From Alphaproteobacteria bacterium (GTDB lineage Bacteria > Pseudomonadota > Alphaproteobacteria > Reyranellales > Reyranellaceae): a stretch of 36,735 bases of DNA. Each line of letters opens with the position of its first letter. The stretch's first letter is position 1. A program made the translations under genes and the position numbers. Of this stretch, positions 3,265-30,707 are shown in pieces. Where the stretch lies: positions 1-36,735 of the forward strand of contig RGPT01000010.1 in NCBI GenBank assembly GCA_010032545.1, written 5' to 3'. Under the pieces are notes generated by a model, which worked only from the letters and a program-made list of their open reading frames with translations, was not told the origin of the DNA and made no database searches.

Positions 3265-4020
3265 ATGACCCTGCGTCCGGAATATTCCCTCGGCCACTCC
3301 GCCTACAACGCCTTCCTCCACGCCGAAGTGGGCGAGGAGGCCAACGGCATCAAGCTTACGGTGCTGACGGCGCTCACCCGCCTCGGCGTCGATCCGTGGC
3401 AGGAAGCCGCCCGCCTGGCCGACCTGCCGCGCGACGTTGCCGTCACCGCACTCGCCGCCTCCATCGCCCGCCTGCCCCCCCTGTCGCCGGGCGGCACCTG
3501 GAAGACCGCCGACGCCGAAGCCATCGCCGCCCGCCTCGCCAACTTCCTGCCCAACCACAGCACCGCGCCGCTCCAGCAGCCCAAGTCCCGCGCCCGGTCA
3601 TCGCACGGGGGCGCCACCGCCGCGCCCGCGCCGGCCGCTGCCGCCGCCGCGTCCGCCCCCAAGCCCAAGGCGACGCTCTCGACCTGGCTGCTGTGGGGCG
3701 TGGCCAATAACAAGGACGCCTACCTGGCCATGGAAATTCGACACGCGGCGATCCTGCGGGAGCACGGCGCCACGCGCGTGGTCTCGGCCTGGGGCGAGGA
3801 CGTCCCCGACGGCAAGGTCACCGACTACAAGGGCGCGGTGAAGGCCACGCCGGACGAGAAGGTCGTCTATGCCTGGATCGAATGGCCGTCGAAGGCGGTT
3901 CGCGACGCGGCCTGGCCCAAGGTGATGGCCGATCCGCGCATGCACGAGGGCAAGGACAGCATGCCGTTCGACCCGCGGCGCATGATCCACGGCGGCTTCG
4001 CACCGATCCTCGACGTCTAG
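3265..4020 (+). CDS. DUF1428-domain protein with unrelated N-terminal domain (possible chimera)
   Basis: The C-terminal ~100 residues match DUF1428 (ferredoxin-like alpha/beta fold, function unknown): REHGATRVV, VVYAWIEWPSK, a KVMADPRM motif, then RRMIHGGFAPILDV at the end. DUF1428 proteins are normally about 115 residues with a first strand like YVDGFVxPVP. Here that strand is missing. Instead about 120 residues of an unrelated helical domain (MTLRPEYSLGHSAYNAFLHA), an Ala/Pro-rich linker and TLSTWLLWGVA lead straight into NNKDAYLAME. The piece STWLLWGVA looks like the start of a membrane helix that is cut short. I infer fusion of two former genes. ATG 3265 is used, but ATG 3244 (after GAGAGGG of the hairpin) is also possible. 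Confidence 0.7.
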   Translation: MTLRPEYSLGHSAYNAFLHAEVGEEANGIKLTVLTALTRLGVDPWQEAARLADLPRDVAVTALAASIARLPPLSPGGTWKTADAEAIAARLANFLPNHSTAPLQQPKSRARSSHGGATAAPAPAAAAAASAPKPKATLSTWLLWGVANNKDAYLAMEIRHAAILREHGATRVVSAWGEDVPDGKVTDYKGAVKATPDEKVVYAWIEWPSKAVRDAAWPKVMADPRMHEGKDSMPFDPRRMIHGGFAPILDV

Positions 4021-4034
4021 CGGAGGGACACGCG

Positions 4035-4514
4035 ATGCCCGCAGCCAAGAACACGATCTGCGTCTGGTACGACAAGGACGCGGAGGCGGCCGCCCGCTTC
4101 TATGCCGCGACCTTTCCCGACAGCGCGGTGAGCGCCGTCCACCGCGCCCCCGCCGACTACCCGTCGGGCAAGAAGGGCGACGTGCTGACGGTCGAATTCA
4201 CCGTGGCCGGCATCCCCTGCCTCGGCCTCAACGGCGGTCCCATGTTCAAGCACAGCGAGGCCTTCTCGTTCCAGATCGCCACCGACGACCAGGCCGAGAC
4301 CGACCGCTACTGGAACGCCATCGTCGGCAACGGCGGCCAGGAGAGCGCCTGCGGCTGGTGCAAGGACAGGTGGGGCGTCTCGTGGCAGATCACGCCGCGG
4401 ATTCTGACCGAGGCGCTGGCGGCCGGCGGCGACGAGGCGCGGCGCGCCTTCGAGACGATGATGGGCATGACCAGGATCGACGTCGCCGCGATCGCGGCCG
4501 CGCGTCGGGGCTAA
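4035..4514 (+). CDS. VOC-fold PhnB-like protein (3-demethylubiquinone methyltransferase-type domain)
   Basis: This is a 159-residue protein of the PhnB/YjdN branch of the vicinal-oxygen-chelate superfamily. Seen: N-terminal ICVWYDKDAEAAARFYAATF, the central FTVAGIPCLGLNGGP with FKHSEAFSFQI, then GGQESACGWCKDRWGVSWQI and a C-terminal MMGMTRIDVAAIAAA. These proteins form dimers of two beta-alpha-beta-beta-beta units, but substrates for this branch are not known; the methyltransferase name found in databases has no biochemical support. A GGAGGG ribosome site is 7 bases before ATG 4035. It follows the DUF1428 gene by 14 bases, so the two are probably co-transcribed. Confidence 0.85.
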   Translation: MPAAKNTICVWYDKDAEAAARFYAATFPDSAVSAVHRAPADYPSGKKGDVLTVEFTVAGIPCLGLNGGPMFKHSEAFSFQIATDDQAETDRYWNAIVGNGGQESACGWCKDRWGVSWQITPRILTEALAAGGDEARRAFETMMGMTRIDVAAIAAARRG

Positions 4515-22169: not shown

Positions 22170-22880
22170 ATGACCTTGCCGATGCTGCGCCGGCTACTTC
22201 CCGTGGCGGTGCTGCTGCTGGGGCTGGCGCTTTTCCTGCTGTTCGACCTTGAGCGGTACTTCTCCTTCGAGATGCTGAGCCGCCACCATGCCGAGCTCGC
22301 GTCGTGGGTCGGCGGCAATGTTGCGCTGGCAGCCCTTGTGTTCGTGCTGCTCTACGCGCTCGTCGTGGCGTTCTCGTTGCCAATCGCCGTGGTGATCACG
22401 CCGTTCGGCGGCTTCCTGTTCGGCATCTGGCTGGGCGCGCTACTGTCCATCGTCGGCGCGACCCTGGGCTCCGTGGCGTTGTTCCTGGCCGCGCGCACGG
22501 CGTTCCAGGATCTCTTCCGCGCGCGCGCCGGCGCCACGCTCGCAAGGCTCGAGGACGGTTTCCGCCGTAACAGTTTCAACTATCTCCTGTTCCTGCGGCT
22601 GGTGCCGGCATTCCCGTTCTGGCTGGTCAATATTGTGCCGGCATTGCTCGGCATGCGGCTCGGCCCCTATGCGGTGGCCACGCTGATCGGCATCGTTCCC
22701 GGCGCGGTGGTCTATGCCGGTGTCGGCGCAAGCTTCGGCAAGCTGATCGAGCGCGGCGAACGGCCCAACTTCGGCGTGATCTTCGAATGGCAGATCCTGC
22801 TGCCCCTGCTGGGGTTGGCGGCGCTGTCACTGCTGCCGGTCCTCTACACGCGCCTGCGCGGCGGCAAGGCGGCACCCTGA
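22170..22880 (+). CDS. TVP38/TMEM64 (VTT-domain) membrane protein
   Basis: This is a 236-residue integral membrane protein of the DedA/TVP38 superfamily. It has an N-terminal helix (RLLPVAVLLLGLALFLLFD), the conserved re-entrant region VVAFSLPIAVVITPFGGFLFG with IVGATLGSVALFLAAR, a second one LFLRLVPAFPFWLVNIVPAL, then GIVPGAVVYAGVGASFG. Eukaryotic VTT proteins are lipid scramblases, and bacterial ones are thought to act in lipid or ion transport. The next gene starts one base after its stop, and TVP38 plus MerA-like flavoprotein is a recurrent pair (sometimes fused), so they probably work together. The start could also be ATG 22182. Confidence 0.88.
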   Translation: MTLPMLRRLLPVAVLLLGLALFLLFDLERYFSFEMLSRHHAELASWVGGNVALAALVFVLLYALVVAFSLPIAVVITPFGGFLFGIWLGALLSIVGATLGSVALFLAARTAFQDLFRARAGATLARLEDGFRRNSFNYLLFLRLVPAFPFWLVNIVPALLGMRLGPYAVATLIGIVPGAVVYAGVGASFGKLIERGERPNFGVIFEWQILLPLLGLAALSLLPVLYTRLRGGKAAP

Positions 22881-22881
22881 A

Positions 22882-24306
22882 ATGACAGACGTGCTCACAC
22901 CTGATGTCTGCATCGTAGGCGGCGGTTCGGCAGGCCTCGTGGTCGCCTCCGGTGCGGCACAACTCGGCCTAAGCGTTGTGCTGATCGAGCGGGCGGAGAT
23001 GGGCGGCGATTGCCTCAACTTCGGCTGCGTGCCGTCGAAGGCACTGATCGCCGCGGCCCACGCCGCCCAGGCGCAGCGCAGTGGCGGCGCCTTCGGCATC
23101 GCACCGGTCGAGCCCAAGGTCGACTTCGCCAAGGTCATGGACCATGTCGCGGGCGTGATCGCTGCCATCGCGCCAAACGATTCGATCGAACGGTTCGAGG
23201 GTCTCGGCGTGCGTGTCCTGAAGGAGGAAGCACGCTTCGTCGGGCGCACCGAACTGCAGGCGGGCCCGTATCTCATCAGAAGCAAACGGATCGTGCTGGC
23301 GACGGGCTCGCGGCCGACGGCGCCACCGATCCCCGGCCTTGCCGGCGTGCCTTACTTCACCAACGAGACGGTGTTCGCCAACCGCGCGCTGCCGGCCCAT
23401 CTGGTGGTGATCGGCGGTGGGCCGATCGGACTGGAGATGGCCCAGGCGCACCGGCGGCTGGGCGCACGCGTCACCGTGCTGGAGGCTTTCGGCTTCCTCG
23501 CCAAGGACGATCCCGAACTTGCCGCGATCGTCCTCGCGCGGCTGCGCGTCGAAGGCGTCGATCTGCGCGACCACGTGAAGATCGCACGGGTCGAACGCGC
23601 CGGCACCGGCATCTCGATCATTCTTGACGGCGGCGAAAGGATCGAAGGATCGCACCTGTTGGTTGCCGCCGGGCGCGCGCCCAATATCGAAGGCCTCGAT
23701 CTCGACAAGGCAGGCGTCTCCCACACCAAGCGCGGGATCACGGTCGATTCAGCCCTCCGCACCGCGAACCGCAACGTCTGGGCGATCGGCGACTGCAACG
23801 GCCTCTATGCCTTCACGCACATGGCGGGCTACGAGGCCTCGCTGTTCATCCGCGGCGCACTGTTCCGCGCGCCGGCCCGCCTCGACCACTCGATCGTGCC
23901 ATGGGCCACCTACACCGACCCCGAACTGGCGCAGGTCGGGCTCAGCGAAGGCGAGGCGCGCAAGCAGCATGGCGAGACGATCCGGGTGCTGCGCTGGAAG
24001 CTGGCCGAGAACGACCGCGCCCAGGCCGAGCGCGAGACCGACGGGCTGGTGAAGGTGATCACCGACGGCCGCGGCCGCGTGCTGGGCGCCACCATCGTCG
24101 GCCCGCATGCCGGTGACCTGATCCAGCCCTGGTGCCTGGCCCTCTCCAGGCGCTTGAAGATCGCGGCGATGGCGGGCTATGTGCCGCCCTATCCGACCCT
24201 GGGCGAGGCGAGCAAGCGCGCCGCCGGCAGCTATTTCACCGAGACGCTGTTCGGGCCCCGGACCCGCGCGCTGGTGCGGTTCCTCGCGCGGCTGCCGGTG
24301 TGGTGA
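22882..24306 (+). CDS. MerA/dihydrolipoamide dehydrogenase-like flavoprotein disulfide reductase
   Basis: This 474-residue class I pyridine nucleotide-disulfide oxidoreductase has an FAD motif VGGGSAGLVVASGA (residues 12-25), a redox-active disulfide GGDCLNFGCVPSK (Cys44 and Cys49), an NAD(P) motif VVIGGGPIGLEMAQAH, and a second FAD motif NVWAIGDCNG. The C-terminal active-site His of lipoamide or glutathione reductases (HPT-x2-E) is replaced by Tyr in PPYPTLGEASK. In mercuric reductase that His is also missing. There is no N-terminal HMA domain and no C-terminal vicinal Cys pair, so mercury is an unlikely substrate. It follows the TVP38 gene with a one-base gap. Confidence 0.88.
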   Translation: MTDVLTPDVCIVGGGSAGLVVASGAAQLGLSVVLIERAEMGGDCLNFGCVPSKALIAAAHAAQAQRSGGAFGIAPVEPKVDFAKVMDHVAGVIAAIAPNDSIERFEGLGVRVLKEEARFVGRTELQAGPYLIRSKRIVLATGSRPTAPPIPGLAGVPYFTNETVFANRALPAHLVVIGGGPIGLEMAQAHRRLGARVTVLEAFGFLAKDDPELAAIVLARLRVEGVDLRDHVKIARVERAGTGISIILDGGERIEGSHLLVAAGRAPNIEGLDLDKAGVSHTKRGITVDSALRTANRNVWAIGDCNGLYAFTHMAGYEASLFIRGALFRAPARLDHSIVPWATYTDPELAQVGLSEGEARKQHGETIRVLRWKLAENDRAQAERETDGLVKVITDGRGRVLGATIVGPHAGDLIQPWCLALSRRLKIAAMAGYVPPYPTLGEASKRAAGSYFTETLFGPRTRALVRFLARLPVW

Positions 24307-26860: not shown

Positions 26861-27769
26861 TTATCCAAACGCCGCAAACACCTCCTCGATCGCCTTCATC
26901 TGGTTACCGGCCGCCGAGGACGGCACCAGGATCGGCGTGTGCACACCCGCTGCGCGCCAGGCAGCCACGCCCTCTCGCACTTTTGCCGCCGGACCGAACA
27001 GCGTGTTCTCGGCCAGCCACTTGTCGGTGAGATACTTCGGCACGTCGTCGCGGCGGCCTTCCGCGATGGCCTTCTCGATGGCGTCCATTTCCTCGACGTA
27101 GCCGGCCTCCTTCCAGTAGTTCCGGTAGTTCGGCAGGAACGCGTAGTTGGTGAGCGTGCGCCGGTTCACGGCCTTGGCGGCTTCGACGTCGTCGCTGATG
27201 CAGGTCGGGATCATGTTGCCGATGAAGAAGTCGGGGCTGTTCCGCTTCGCCGCAGGGAGGGCGGCAAGAGACTCGGACATGTGCGACAGCGAGGCATTGG
27301 CGAAGACCACGCCCTCGGCCAGTTCGCCCGACAGCGCCACCATGCGCTTGCGGAGCGCCGCGACGATGATCGGCGGCAGGGGGCCGAAGGCGCTCTCGGC
27401 ACGGAACTTCTCGATGAAGGCGCGCGTGTCGGCCAGCGGCTTGCCCGGCGTCACGCCCATGCGCACATGCGACGGCCCGTGCGCGATGCCGATGCCGAGG
27501 CGGAAGCGTCCGCCCGAGACCTCGTGCATCACGGCCGCACTCTGCGCGAAATCGACGATGGTGCGCTGGTAGATCGGCGCGATGGCGGTGCCGAAGGTGA
27601 GCGTGGCGGTGTTCCAGGCGAGCGCCTCGCACATCGACATGTTGCCCATCGGGCTCGGCACGTAGATCCCGGCGAAGCCGCGCCGCTCGGCGTCCTGACA
27701 CAGTTCGATGGTGCGGCGACGACGCCCGGGCATGGCGATCAGGCAGAGCGCGGGAAGCTGTTCGGACAT
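26861..27769 (-). CDS. LLM-class (luciferase-like) flavin-dependent oxidoreductase
   Basis: This is a 302-residue TIM-barrel protein of the bacterial luciferase-like superfamily: ELCQDAERRGFAGIYVPSPM, ATLTFGTAIAPIYQRTIVDF, MHEVSGGRFRLGIGIAHGPS, PPIIVAALRKRMVALSGELA and a C-terminal AAKVREGVAAWRAAGVHTPI. Superfamily members use FMN or coenzyme F420 and oxidise or reduce varied small molecules; the cofactor cannot be told here. AAGGAA precedes the ATG. It follows the selenoprotein gene on the same strand after 79 bases, so a shared pathway is possible but unproven. Confidence 0.85.
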   Translation of the reverse strand: MSEQLPALCLIAMPGRRRRTIELCQDAERRGFAGIYVPSPMGNMSMCEALAWNTATLTFGTAIAPIYQRTIVDFAQSAAVMHEVSGGRFRLGIGIAHGPSHVRMGVTPGKPLADTRAFIEKFRAESAFGPLPPIIVAALRKRMVALSGELAEGVVFANASLSHMSESLAALPAAKRNSPDFFIGNMIPTCISDDVEAAKAVNRRTLTNYAFLPNYRNYWKEAGYVEEMDAIEKAIAEGRRDDVPKYLTDKWLAENTLFGPAAKVREGVAAWRAAGVHTPILVPSSAAGNQMKAIEEVFAAFG

Positions 27770-27848: not shown

Positions 27849-29015
27849 CTATCCCAACCGGTGCCGCTCCGTCGCCGGAATCATGGTCAGGTTGCCCAGG
27901 ATTTTGTGCTGCGCGTCGGCGCTGGCGGCGAGTTTCGGCTGCAGGGCGATCAAAGAACGGGCGAGGATCGTCTCGTCCCACAGCCACGCCTTGCGGGTGC
28001 GCGACGAGCCGGGGTCAGGAAAGGCCGAGGCCGCTTCGAGGTAGTAGGCTTTGAGATCGTCGATCGCCTGCTTGAGCGGCTGCGCGGGCGGCAGCGAGTC
28101 CTGCAGCGCCGCGGCCACCAGCTTTCCGGCCGCCGGCATGTCGAGCCCGGACACGCCCACCGTGGTGCGGCCCTGCGCGGCGATGGCGCGGTCGTACCAC
28201 GCGGCGAGCCGGTCGATCTCGGCGGCGAGCGTGTCGCCGGCACCTGGCGCCAGGTTGATGGGGCAGGCCCAGCCGGTGAAGTCGGCTTCCTCGGCGACGT
28301 GCTCGGGATAGTCGGCGATCAGCGGCCCGTCGGTGCGCTCGAACAAGTCGAGAGCCCCCTGCATCACCCGGCGCTGGAAGGCCGCGTCGTCGGGGATGCC
28401 GAACGGACGGCCAAGCTCGAACGTCACCCACAGCGCGCGCGGCGGACGGACGGTTTCAGTGTGTTCGCGCACCAGGCTGATGCCGACGGTGGGGATGCCC
28501 TCGCGCTCCAGAAAGTGCCCCAGCGCGCCCACGGCGCGCGTGCAGGCGGGTCAAACCGGGACGAGAAGTGCCGCGTCGACTTTGTCGCTCTTCAGAAGCC
28601 CGGCGAGGTGTTTGGCATGCGGGGCCGCCGCCTCGGGCGGGAAGGCGCCCATGAAGGCGTAGTGGACCGAAGCCATCGAACCCACGACGCCGTCGGCCGC
28701 AAGTTCGCGCAGGCGATCGATCGGGAAGGCGACGTTCAGGTCCTGCTGAAAACCCGTGCGGTCGAAGTTCACCGAAATGTGGCTCATCACCAGATCGCCC
28801 GCCGGCGTTTCCGCCGGGATGACGCGATAGCTGCCGTCGCCCGGCTGGAAGGGCCGGTCGCCGCGCCTGTGCAGGCCGGCCGTCGAGATCAGCGCCACGC
28901 GGCGCTGGCCCAGCGGCTTGCCGGCCAGCAGCGGCGTGTCGTCGTAGGTCGGGCACTCGATGCGGGCGAGGTGCTTCGCCTCGACCTCGGGCATGTCGCT
29001 CAGACGCTTGACCAT
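27849..29015 (-). CDS. Selenoprotein: GrdB/PrdB-type (glycine/sarcosine/betaine/D-proline reductase B family), in-frame UGA
   Basis: Two open segments (29015-28554 and 28550-27849) join in the same frame across a single TGA at 28553-28551. Read through, the junction is LLVPV-U-PACTRAVGALGHF, the motif of PrdB/GrdB selenoproteins, with Sec155 and Cys158 forming a U-x2-C redox pair. Before it stand GDGSYRVIPAETPAGDLVMS, HISVNFDRTGFQQDLNVAFP and DGVVGSMASVHYAFMGAFP, all typical of the GrdB family; after it come REGIPTVGISLVREHTE and FELGRPFGIPDD. Total length is 388 residues. A SECIS-like hairpin begins right after the UGA. GGAG lies 10 bases before the ATG. LysR precedes it by 15 bases. The prdA/grd partner genes of clostridial systems are absent here, so it probably has another reductive role. 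Confidence 0.88.
28523..28539 (-). promoter_or_regulatory. Bacterial SECIS-like hairpin downstream of the UGA codon
   Basis: On the minus strand GCGCGCC (28539-28533), loop GTG and GGCGCGC (28529-28523) make a perfect 7-bp stem. The loop begins 18 bases after the UGA and its first base is G; known bacterial SECIS elements have a G in the first two loop positions, 16-37 bases from the UGA. Extra outer pairing (TGC with GCA) extends the stem. Confidence 0.65.
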
Positions 29016-29030
29016 GAAGATGTACTCCAG

Positions 29031-29918
29031 TTACGAGCCGACGTTGCCCCAGGGAAAGGCCAGAACCTCCCGCACGAACGCGCCGACTGCCGGCACATGC
29101 GGCCGTCCACGAACGGTGACGACCTGGATGGTGCGCGTGATCTCGGGGTCGATCAACGGGCGCACCCGCAGGCCCGGCATGGTGACCGCATATTCGGGAA
29201 TAAAGGTGAAGCCGAAGCCGGCCAGCACCATGCTCTGCACCCAGTCGTCACGGTCGCTGCGAAAGACGATGACTGTCTTGGCACCCTGCTCGCGGAACAG
29301 CTTGCGGGCGTGGTCGAAGAACTCGCATTGCAGGCGATTGACGTAGTGCTGACCGTCGAGATCCTTGGCACACACCACGTTCTGCTTGTCGAAGGCATGG
29401 CCAGGCCCGACTCCGATCACGAAGCGCTCGTCGTAAAGACGGCGGACATGAAAGCGCTCGTCGATCTCCTCGGGCTGGCCATAGACCGCGACGTCGAGTT
29501 CACCCTGGGCCAGGCGCTCCTGAAGCTGCTGGTTCGAGCCGTCCGACATCACCAGCCGCACCTTGGGATGGCGCTCGCGGAAAGCCTGCAGGAACGGCAC
29601 GAAGCGGCGCGGGCCGATGGTGCACATCATGCCGAGCTTGAGCTCGACGTCGTCCATTGCAGAAAAGCTCTTCGCGCGTTCCTTGGCGGCGTCGGTCTCG
29701 ATCAAAACCTGCGACAGATGCGGGCGCATCATCTCGCCGAGGCCGGTCAGGTGGGTGTTGTTGCGCTCGCGGCGGAACAGCGGCCCGCCCAGCTCGTCTT
29801 CCAGGCCCTTGATGGCGCGGGTCAGCGACGGCTGTGAGACGTGGCACGTCTCGGCGGCACGCGTGAAGTTCAGAGTTTCACAAACCGCGAGAAAGTAGCG
29901 GATTTGATGCATTTCCAA
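29031..29918 (-). CDS. LysR-type transcriptional regulator
   Basis: This 295-residue regulator has the N-terminal helix-turn-helix of LysR proteins (MHQIRYFLAVCETLNFTRAA, then HVSQPSLTRAIKGLEDELGG and PLFRRERN) and a periplasmic-binding-like effector domain (VELKLGMMCTIGPRRFVPFL, GELDVAVYGQPEE, FGFTFIPEYAV). TTG 29918 is preferred as start: GGGGGAG lies 8 bases upstream and the second residues read EMHQIRYF as in relatives; ATG 29912 is the alternative. It precedes the selenoprotein gene by 15 bases on the same strand and diverges from the peroxiredoxin-like gene, so it may control both. The effector is unknown. Confidence 0.88.
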   Translation of the reverse strand: MEMHQIRYFLAVCETLNFTRAAETCHVSQPSLTRAIKGLEDELGGPLFRRERNNTHLTGLGEMMRPHLSQVLIETDAAKERAKSFSAMDDVELKLGMMCTIGPRRFVPFLQAFRERHPKVRLVMSDGSNQQLQERLAQGELDVAVYGQPEEIDERFHVRRLYDERFVIGVGPGHAFDKQNVVCAKDLDGQHYVNRLQCEFFDHARKLFREQGAKTVIVFRSDRDDWVQSMVLAGFGFTFIPEYAVTMPGLRVRPLIDPEITRTIQVVTVRGRPHVPAVGAFVREVLAFPWGNVGS

Positions 29919-29961
29919 GACAGTAACTCCCCCGACACCAGCGATTATGCCCCGGATCGCC

Positions 29962-29996
29962 ATAGCCCATGGCTATCGACCTTCAGACCCGAAGGT
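29962..29996. promoter_or_regulatory. Two dyads, likely LysR operators, in the lysR-peroxiredoxin gap
   Basis: ATAGCC-CAT-GGCTAT (29962-29976) is a perfect dyad that includes a T-N11-A LysR core. Immediately to the right, ACCTTC-N6-GAAGGT (29979-29996) is a second perfect dyad. LysR regulators usually bind a recognition and an activation site side by side in the divergent region, which fits this arrangement. Confidence 0.5.
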
Positions 29997-30035: not shown

Positions 30036-30707
30036 ATGTTGCTCAAACAGACGCTTCTGGAACTCGGCCGCCATCATAGGGCAGCGCTTTCCGTGCGAGA
30101 CCGGGCGGATTTCGAGGACGAGCTCAACCGGTTGCGCATGATGCGCCTGGCCGAGGAGGGATTGGGGCTCGGCGACCTTCTTCCCGATTTTGCGCTTGAG
30201 GACGTCGCCGGCCGCTTCTGGACATCGGGCGAGCTGCTCGACCGTGGGCCGCTGGTGTTGGCGCTGTTCCGTGGCGACTGGTGCCCCTACTGCGACCTCA
30301 CTATGGCGGCCCTCGAGAAAGCACGGCCGGCGATAGAGGCCCTGGGTGCGACGGCGGTCGGAATCCTGCCGGACGGCCGCGAGCACATCGCCCGCACGGC
30401 CGCGCGGCGCGGCATCGGCTATCTGCTGCTCAGCGACCCGGCCAACGCCTACTCCCGTACCTGTGGCCTCGCCTACGACCTGTCGCCGGACCACATTCGT
30501 CTTCATCGCGAGCGCGGACGCGACCTGCCAACTCGGCACGGCGATTCGACCTGGCGCCTGCCGGTGCCCGCCGTGTTCGTGGTCGAGCCGAACGCGCGCG
30601 TGGCTTTCGCCTTTGCCGACGTCGATCCGGAGCGCTGGCCTGATCCAGAGGCGCTGCTCGCGTCGCTGCAGGAATTGTATGACCTCCCTGCGTCCTCGAA
30701 CCGTTAG
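30036..30707 (+). CDS. Peroxiredoxin-like (AhpC/TSA-fold) protein with CPYC motif
   Basis: This 223-residue redoxin has an N-terminal helical segment (FEDELNRLRMMRLAEEGL), then the thioredoxin-fold domain GLGDLLPDFALEDVAGRFWT, LVLALFRGDWCPYCDLTMAA (Cys83 and Cys86), GATAVGILPD and the cis-Pro region LPVPAVFVVEPNARVAFAFA. The C-x2-C at the first helix resembles the Prx-like group in which some members carry Sec in place of a Cys; here both are Cys. It may reduce peroxides or disulfides. It diverges from lysR across 117 bases and may share its control with the selenoprotein gene. No clear ribosome site is visible. Confidence 0.85.
   Translation: MLLKQTLLELGRHHRAALSVRDRADFEDELNRLRMMRLAEEGLGLGDLLPDFALEDVAGRFWTSGELLDRGPLVLALFRGDWCPYCDLTMAALEKARPAIEALGATAVGILPDGREHIARTAARRGIGYLLLSDPANAYSRTCGLAYDLSPDHIRLHRERGRDLPTRHGDSTWRLPVPAVFVVEPNARVAFAFADVDPERWPDPEALLASLQELYDLPASSNR

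Follow-up and report, generated by a model that had tools for sequence, protein, structure and literature searches.

We analysed a 36,735-nucleotide stretch of DNA (the window; contig RGPT01000010.1) from a Reyranella metagenome-assembled genome (MAG), a draft of 567 contigs. On its minus strand, two open segments share one frame and are separated solely by a TGA at 28553-28551. When this TGA is read as U, the region forms a single ORF of 388 codons (Table 1), in which U is residue 155 and stands in the context LLVPV-U-PACTRAVGALGHF, giving the motif UPACTRAVG. An earlier note made from the DNA letters had described this frame and assigned it to an alphaproteobacterial host; the joined ORF bears out the former, and the closest named loci, which belong to Reyranella, Enhydrobacter aerosaccus and similar organisms, the latter. 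The cultured relatives Reyranella and Enhydrobacter are aerobic.

The LysR-family gene also adjoins the selenocysteine (Sec) gene in three close loci, with 85-92% identity, and a luciferase-like monooxygenase gene was not found beside the Sec gene at the other loci compared. An AhpC/TSA-type peroxiredoxin gene (30036-30707) adjoins the LysR gene, and some other Reyranella loci have ORFs related to it close to the Sec gene. A VTT-domain protein and a pyridine nucleotide-disulfide oxidoreductase are encoded as a pair at 22170-24306, and oxidoreductases like this one occur near the Sec gene in the Desulfobacterota loci L141, L142, L147 and L150.

Table 1. Features of the Sec gene and its immediate neighbours (positions in the window).
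Feature	Position	Strand	Basis
Selenoprotein gene, 388 codons plus stop, one in-frame TGA (predicted Sec155)	27849-29015	-	Joined ORF; 52/52 site-spanning matches from the order with one TGA
Predicted Sec codon TGA, residue 155	28551-28553	-	All 32 close orthologues have TGA; G210 has a natural Cys codon (TGT) here
Cys158 codon, second residue of U-x-x-C	28542-28544	-	C158 invariant in the first alignment
SECIS hairpin within the coding sequence, 7-bp stem and 3-nt loop GUG	28523-28539	-	Third-position diversity, covariation
N-terminal PrdB/GrdB-like alpha/beta domain, about residues 33-242	28290-28919	-	TIGR04483 match 32-226; AlphaFold2 model
C-terminal all-helical domain, about residues 243-388	27852-28289	-	Alignment of 52 sequences; structure model
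LysR-family regulator gene	29031-29963	-	Pfam PF00126 and PF03466; 15 nt upstream of the Sec gene ATG
Luciferase-like monooxygenase gene, downstream, same strand	26861-27769	-	Pfam PF00296

Conservation of the TGA and its hairpin

An in-frame TGA may be a disabling mutation or an assembly error, as in a pseudogene, or an ordinary stop codon that is read through. The relatives speak against such explanations. All 52 matches from the order that span the site have a single in-frame TGA and are otherwise free of stops, a degree of conservation that chance would not produce. In an even draw of 289 Alphaproteobacteria, the TGA was found in 24 of 25 matches of the long form described below (22 genomes); the remaining match, in genome G210, reads PVCPNCTRA, with Cys (TGT) at the Sec site. 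Homologues with U or C at position 155, which had been proposed as a further check, thus occur in both forms. A comparison of 32 distinct close orthologues showed the first two codon positions to be much less diverse than the third, both before and after the TGA, indicating that the downstream protein is under purifying selection, and the 220 codons that follow remain open. We also considered an alternative genetic code and rejected it: TGA ends 14 of the 25 other assigned genes in the window and is the commonest stop there, so the code has not changed.

Some long homologues showed particular sequence features. One (L183:5890-7074) has a further in-frame stop, TAG, besides the TGA, and C in place of R downstream of the Sec motif; it looks decayed or misassembled. 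Another (L169:792-2052) has the Arg codon CGA where Sec is otherwise encoded, with its hairpin intact, the result of a one-base change or a MAG sequencing error. The long Sec gene is duplicated in tandem at L139, L140, L149 and L157, with TGA and hairpin in both copies.

A SECIS hairpin just 3' of the UGA with a G near the start of its loop, the arrangement by which bacterial selenoproteins are recognised, is present. Its stem of 7 bp (28539-28533 pairing with 28529-28523) starts 11 nt after the TGA, and its GUG loop (28532-28530) starts 18 nt after it; the stem length and G-first loop given previously therefore stand, and the distance of 18 bases applies to the loop rather than to the stem. 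In codons 0-9 after the TGA, position-3 diversity among the 32 orthologues is 0.08 versus roughly 0.2-0.5 elsewhere, an about fivefold drop. Judged from the alignment, this is nucleotide-level constraint exactly at the position of bacterial SECIS elements. The 45 nt from the TGA align without gaps in 55 homologues; 90.4% of the stem cells are paired, and none of the homologues departs from the G and U of the loop. The stem covariation score is 0.451, compared with 0.170 for shuffled alignments and at most 0.131 with slid partners, although the 55 homologues are related by descent, so that shuffle counts are not probabilities and kinship inflates the significance of the covariation. The stem reads GCGCGCC...GGCGCGC in the long clade versus CCAGACC...GTCTGG in short paralogues, with different encoded amino acids, and the Cys homologue in G210 has lost the invariant loop U and the outer hairpin pairs. 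The folding energy of the hairpin was no better than that of shuffled sequences (z = +1.06) and was therefore not counted as evidence; support for the hairpin comes from frozen synonymous sites and a covarying stem. There was no Rfam match at gathering thresholds in the window.

Selenocysteine machinery and its co-occurrence with the gene

A search of the window's genome for selA, selB, selD and tRNA-Sec, as the earlier note had advised, recovered three of the four: tRNA-Sec (71 bits), selB (447 bits; about 100 bp from the tRNA-Sec gene, on one contig with it) and selD (172 bits, cut by a contig end). Their presence supports the proposed true Sec insertion. We did not find selA in this draft MAG; since 71 of 76 genomes of the order have a selA match (68 over the cut-off), its absence is most likely an assembly gap.

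The machinery also follows the gene across genomes. Within the even draw, selB was detected in 20 of 21 TGA carriers and in 1 of 17 genomes among the non-carriers listed (Fisher p about 1e-8, with genomes that are not independent). No selB match was obtained in G210, the Cys-form genome, which has two contigs and is scored 100% complete; nor was selB detected in G307, a TGA carrier whose completeness is given as 100%.

Taken together, reading the TGA as a lesion, an assembly error or a readthrough site draws on the selA missing from the MAG and on one decayed relative (G115) with an extra TAG. It is already contradicted by the conservation data: the TGA is kept in every site-spanning relative from the order, selection acts on the protein after it, the SECIS codons are frozen, the hairpin covaries, the Cys homologue comes from a genome that gave no selB match, and the code is unchanged. 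We therefore regard this reading as scarcely tenable. The window gene is almost certainly one intact selenoprotein gene, with its UGA predicted to be decoded as Sec155.

Nine genomes have selB no more than 15 kb from the Sec gene. In eight of the nine selB-near loci inspected, the neighbour is selA (two) or selD (six: five NADH-oxidoreductase/SelD fusions and one plain gene). Such neighbours could indicate a role in selenium or oxidative-stress physiology, for instance in supplying SelD with selenide or in reducing oxidised species of selenium or sulfur. It is common for selenoprotein genes to move together with sel genes, e.g., fdhA in Proteobacteria (PMC1794560), so the linkage may only reflect island transfer, and the Reyranella Sec gene does not adjoin sel genes. 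On balance, we consider a role of this kind unlikely.

Family placement and domain structure

The earlier note had assigned the protein to the GrdB/PrdB family, and profile matches confirm the homology. The protein passes the gathering score of PF07355 (27.4 vs 22 bits) through a match of residues 82-152 to profile positions 274-345 of 347, i.e., the last 72 positions. The best NCBIfam model is PrdB, TIGR04483 (match 32-226, E 1e-29), where its 103.4 bits remain below the equivalog cut-off of 300 bits; with TIGR01918, it scores 44.2 bits against a subfamily cut-off of 65.45 bits.

A maximum-likelihood tree of 88 sequences resolved three groups: a long subfamily of 59 rows (support 100/99), PrdB with 5 rows (100/100), and short alphaproteobacterial forms with 24 rows (86/64), whose unity is weak given this support. 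The window protein falls outside the PrdB clade, and we are highly confident that the long subfamily, to which it belongs, is distinct from PrdB. Members of the long subfamily have 388-410 aa and the motif VPV-U-P-x-C-T-R-A-V and were found in Alphaproteobacteria, Desulfobacterota and some Gammaproteobacteria; U155 and C158 are invariant in the first alignment. Clostridial PrdB had been credited with a VPV-U-P motif at a similar position. The position agrees, but PrdB of Peptoclostridium and Terrisporobacter reads TAG-U-GTCHR at residue 151.

The window's own genome encodes a second PrdB-like protein (L077, G000:C139, match 3480-4175), whose gene has one in-frame TGA (VPT-U-PVCHQTVS) and the same hairpin type and falls into the short clade. 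In Reyranella, short PrdB-like Sec genes also form adjacent pairs, at L078, L079 and L080. One gene of each pair reads U-P-L-D and has lost the second Cys while keeping TGA and hairpin; the C of UxxC is therefore not universal in the wider family.

In the AlphaFold2 model (mean pLDDT 82.9, pTM 0.85), the N-terminal domain consists of alternating strands and helices. The C-terminal domain of about 145 residues is predicted to be all-helical (mean pLDDT 89.9), and an alignment of 52 sequences shows it to be conserved, its E, W-x-W and T positions being invariant. A structure search with the full model related the N-terminal domain to generic Rossmann-like or periplasmic-binding folds, with a best Z of 8.8 that is too weak for assignment. 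The C-terminal domain alone gave no match above Z 5.2, which does not imply a novel fold, and a sequence search for solved relatives returned none that was convincing.

Partners, possible chemistry and known systems

The reaction of PrdA/PrdB or GrdE/GrdB needs a pyruvoyl partner. The PrdA model TIGR04480 had no match in 76 genomes, and no control matched it either; we therefore used PF09338, which covers component B subunits of the glycine reductase type, for the partner search. Neither PF09338 nor GrdA (PF04723) was found in 14 Reyranella-family genomes, one-contig genomes included, and both models matched in a Desulfobacteraceae genome (G076) that served as positive control. The earlier statement that no reductase partner lies nearby thus holds for every Reyranella-family genome tested. 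Neighbour clustering found no gene neighbour conserved across the long subfamily.

A conserved operon partner was considered and rejected, as all neighbour clusters were lineage-limited. They comprise a TetR gene with a small ORF, and LysR, both limited to Reyranella; a PrpE-like gene in other genera of the family; a TauD-like gene in some marine lineages; and a type II haloacid dehalogenase gene in some Desulfobacterota. In three related loci of that phylum, this last gene starts 7-38 bp downstream on the same strand; it passes the NCBIfam cut-off and was profile-checked in two of the three. The haloacid dehalogenase genes, and GST-like neighbours in three loci, are weak hints of a substrate, none of them decisive.

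With no pyruvoyl partner found in the Reyranella-family genomes tested and no neighbour conserved, the PrdA/PrdB or GrdE/GrdB reaction cannot be assumed. Homology to TIGR04483 and PF07355 would fit a subunit of the PrdB or GrdB type that works with a pyruvoyl partner in the reduction of D-proline, glycine, betaine or sarcosine, as would the label "proline reductase PrdB" that UxxC sequences carry in metagenome papers (PMC2398784, PMC1088965). We consider this very unlikely in view of the missing PF09338 and GrdA matches alongside a working control, the TIGR04480 result, obtained with no positive control, a bit score at a third of the TIGR04483 equivalog cut-off, the separate clade and the different motif. 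A reductive dehalogenase-like activity on small halogenated acids has a precedent in FarB, a GrdB-like fluoroacetate reductase proposed to be reductive dehalogenase-like (PMC10838667), and would suit the haloacid dehalogenase genes downstream. That arrangement is, however, confined to one Desulfobacterota lineage, and FarB works with FarE, a GrdE homologue of the kind absent from the Reyranella-family genomes tested, which makes this activity improbable as well, if slightly less so.

The best explanation overall, to which we assign a probability of about 0.7, is a SECIS-directed selenoprotein of a distinct, long PrdB-like subfamily that presumably acts as a stand-alone reductase. SelB and tRNA-Sec would decode the UGA as Sec155 under the direction of the hairpin within the coding sequence. 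The Sec155 selenolate could then attack the substrate and cleave a carbon-heteroatom or similar bond, Cys158 would resolve the intermediate by forming a Se-S bond, and the Sec155/Cys158 couple would be re-reduced by a thiol of the cell, e.g., glutathione or thioredoxin; unlike in PrdA/PrdB or GrdE/GrdB, no pyruvoyl partner would be needed. We give this stand-alone, thiol-dependent scheme roughly even odds. A new job for the enzyme, as the earlier note suggested, is plausible. Somewhat more tentatively, the proteins may form a pyruvoyl-independent selenoenzyme subfamily with a reductive reaction unlike those of Grd and Prd, in which the helical C-terminal domain takes the place of the partner subunit. 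Sec and Cys could also serve another nucleophilic or redox role or work with an unrecognised partner.

The only enzymes with the GrdB/PrdB fold known to have been characterised biochemically are multi-subunit, pyruvoyl-dependent reductases from anaerobes, and no Stickland fermentation is known from Reyranella or Enhydrobacter. In relatives of these genera, the long subfamily stands alone and is kept almost entirely as a selenoprotein. Our literature search found no paper that links Reyranella to selenoproteins of its own. The Sec gene is carried by the cultured Reyranella soli, R. aquatilis and Enhydrobacter aerosaccus, which makes the subfamily testable.

Among known systems, PrdB (TIGR04483) shares with the window protein the sequence family of the core domain, UxxC at about residue 150 and Sec at an equal alignment position. 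It differs in its motif, with TAG-U-GTCHR in Peptoclostridium, Terrisporobacter, Enterococcus and Ligilactobacillus versus VPV-U-PACTRA, and in its length of 238-242 aa, which leaves out the C-terminal domain of the long subfamily; in the Terrisporobacter, Enterococcus and Ligilactobacillus records it is encoded with PrdA. GrdB, GrdF and GrdH (PF07355, TIGR01918) resemble the window protein in the end of PF07355, matched above the gathering score. Only this C-terminal part of GrdB is matched, however, NCBIfam cut-offs are not reached, and the Reyranella-family genomes tested contain no GrdE-type or GrdA partner. The RefSeq "glycine/sarcosine/betaine reductase selenoprotein B family proteins" of Roseomonas and Haematobacter are Cys-containing relatives with P-x-C-P-x-C, but they are short forms of about 300 aa in the separate short clade.

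"Proline reductase" selenoproteins have been listed for Anaeromyxobacter and Geobacter, and a 2006 survey gave a single selenoprotein family, FdhA, for Alphaproteobacteria (PMC1794560). The broad UxxC "proline reductase PrdB" family is, according to two metagenome studies, among the commonest marine selenoprotein families, with 42 Sargasso Sea sequences (PMC1088965) and 235 Sec sequences in GOS (PMC2398784). Like the window protein, these sequences have UxxC, are pfam07355-like and mostly contain Sec; because this family was reported in 2005 and 2008, the group of the window protein is a distinct subfamily of a known family. The accessible portions of both papers treat one PrdB family and do not describe a long subfamily, an extra domain, a missing pyruvoyl partner or sel linkage. 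Added here are the separation of the long, partnerless subfamily, the SECIS covariation, the Cys counterpart from a genome that gave no selB match, and the sel linkage. On this view, selenoproteome surveys of sea and soil may be lumping three or more clades together as "PrdB", and their counts should not be equated with proline reduction.
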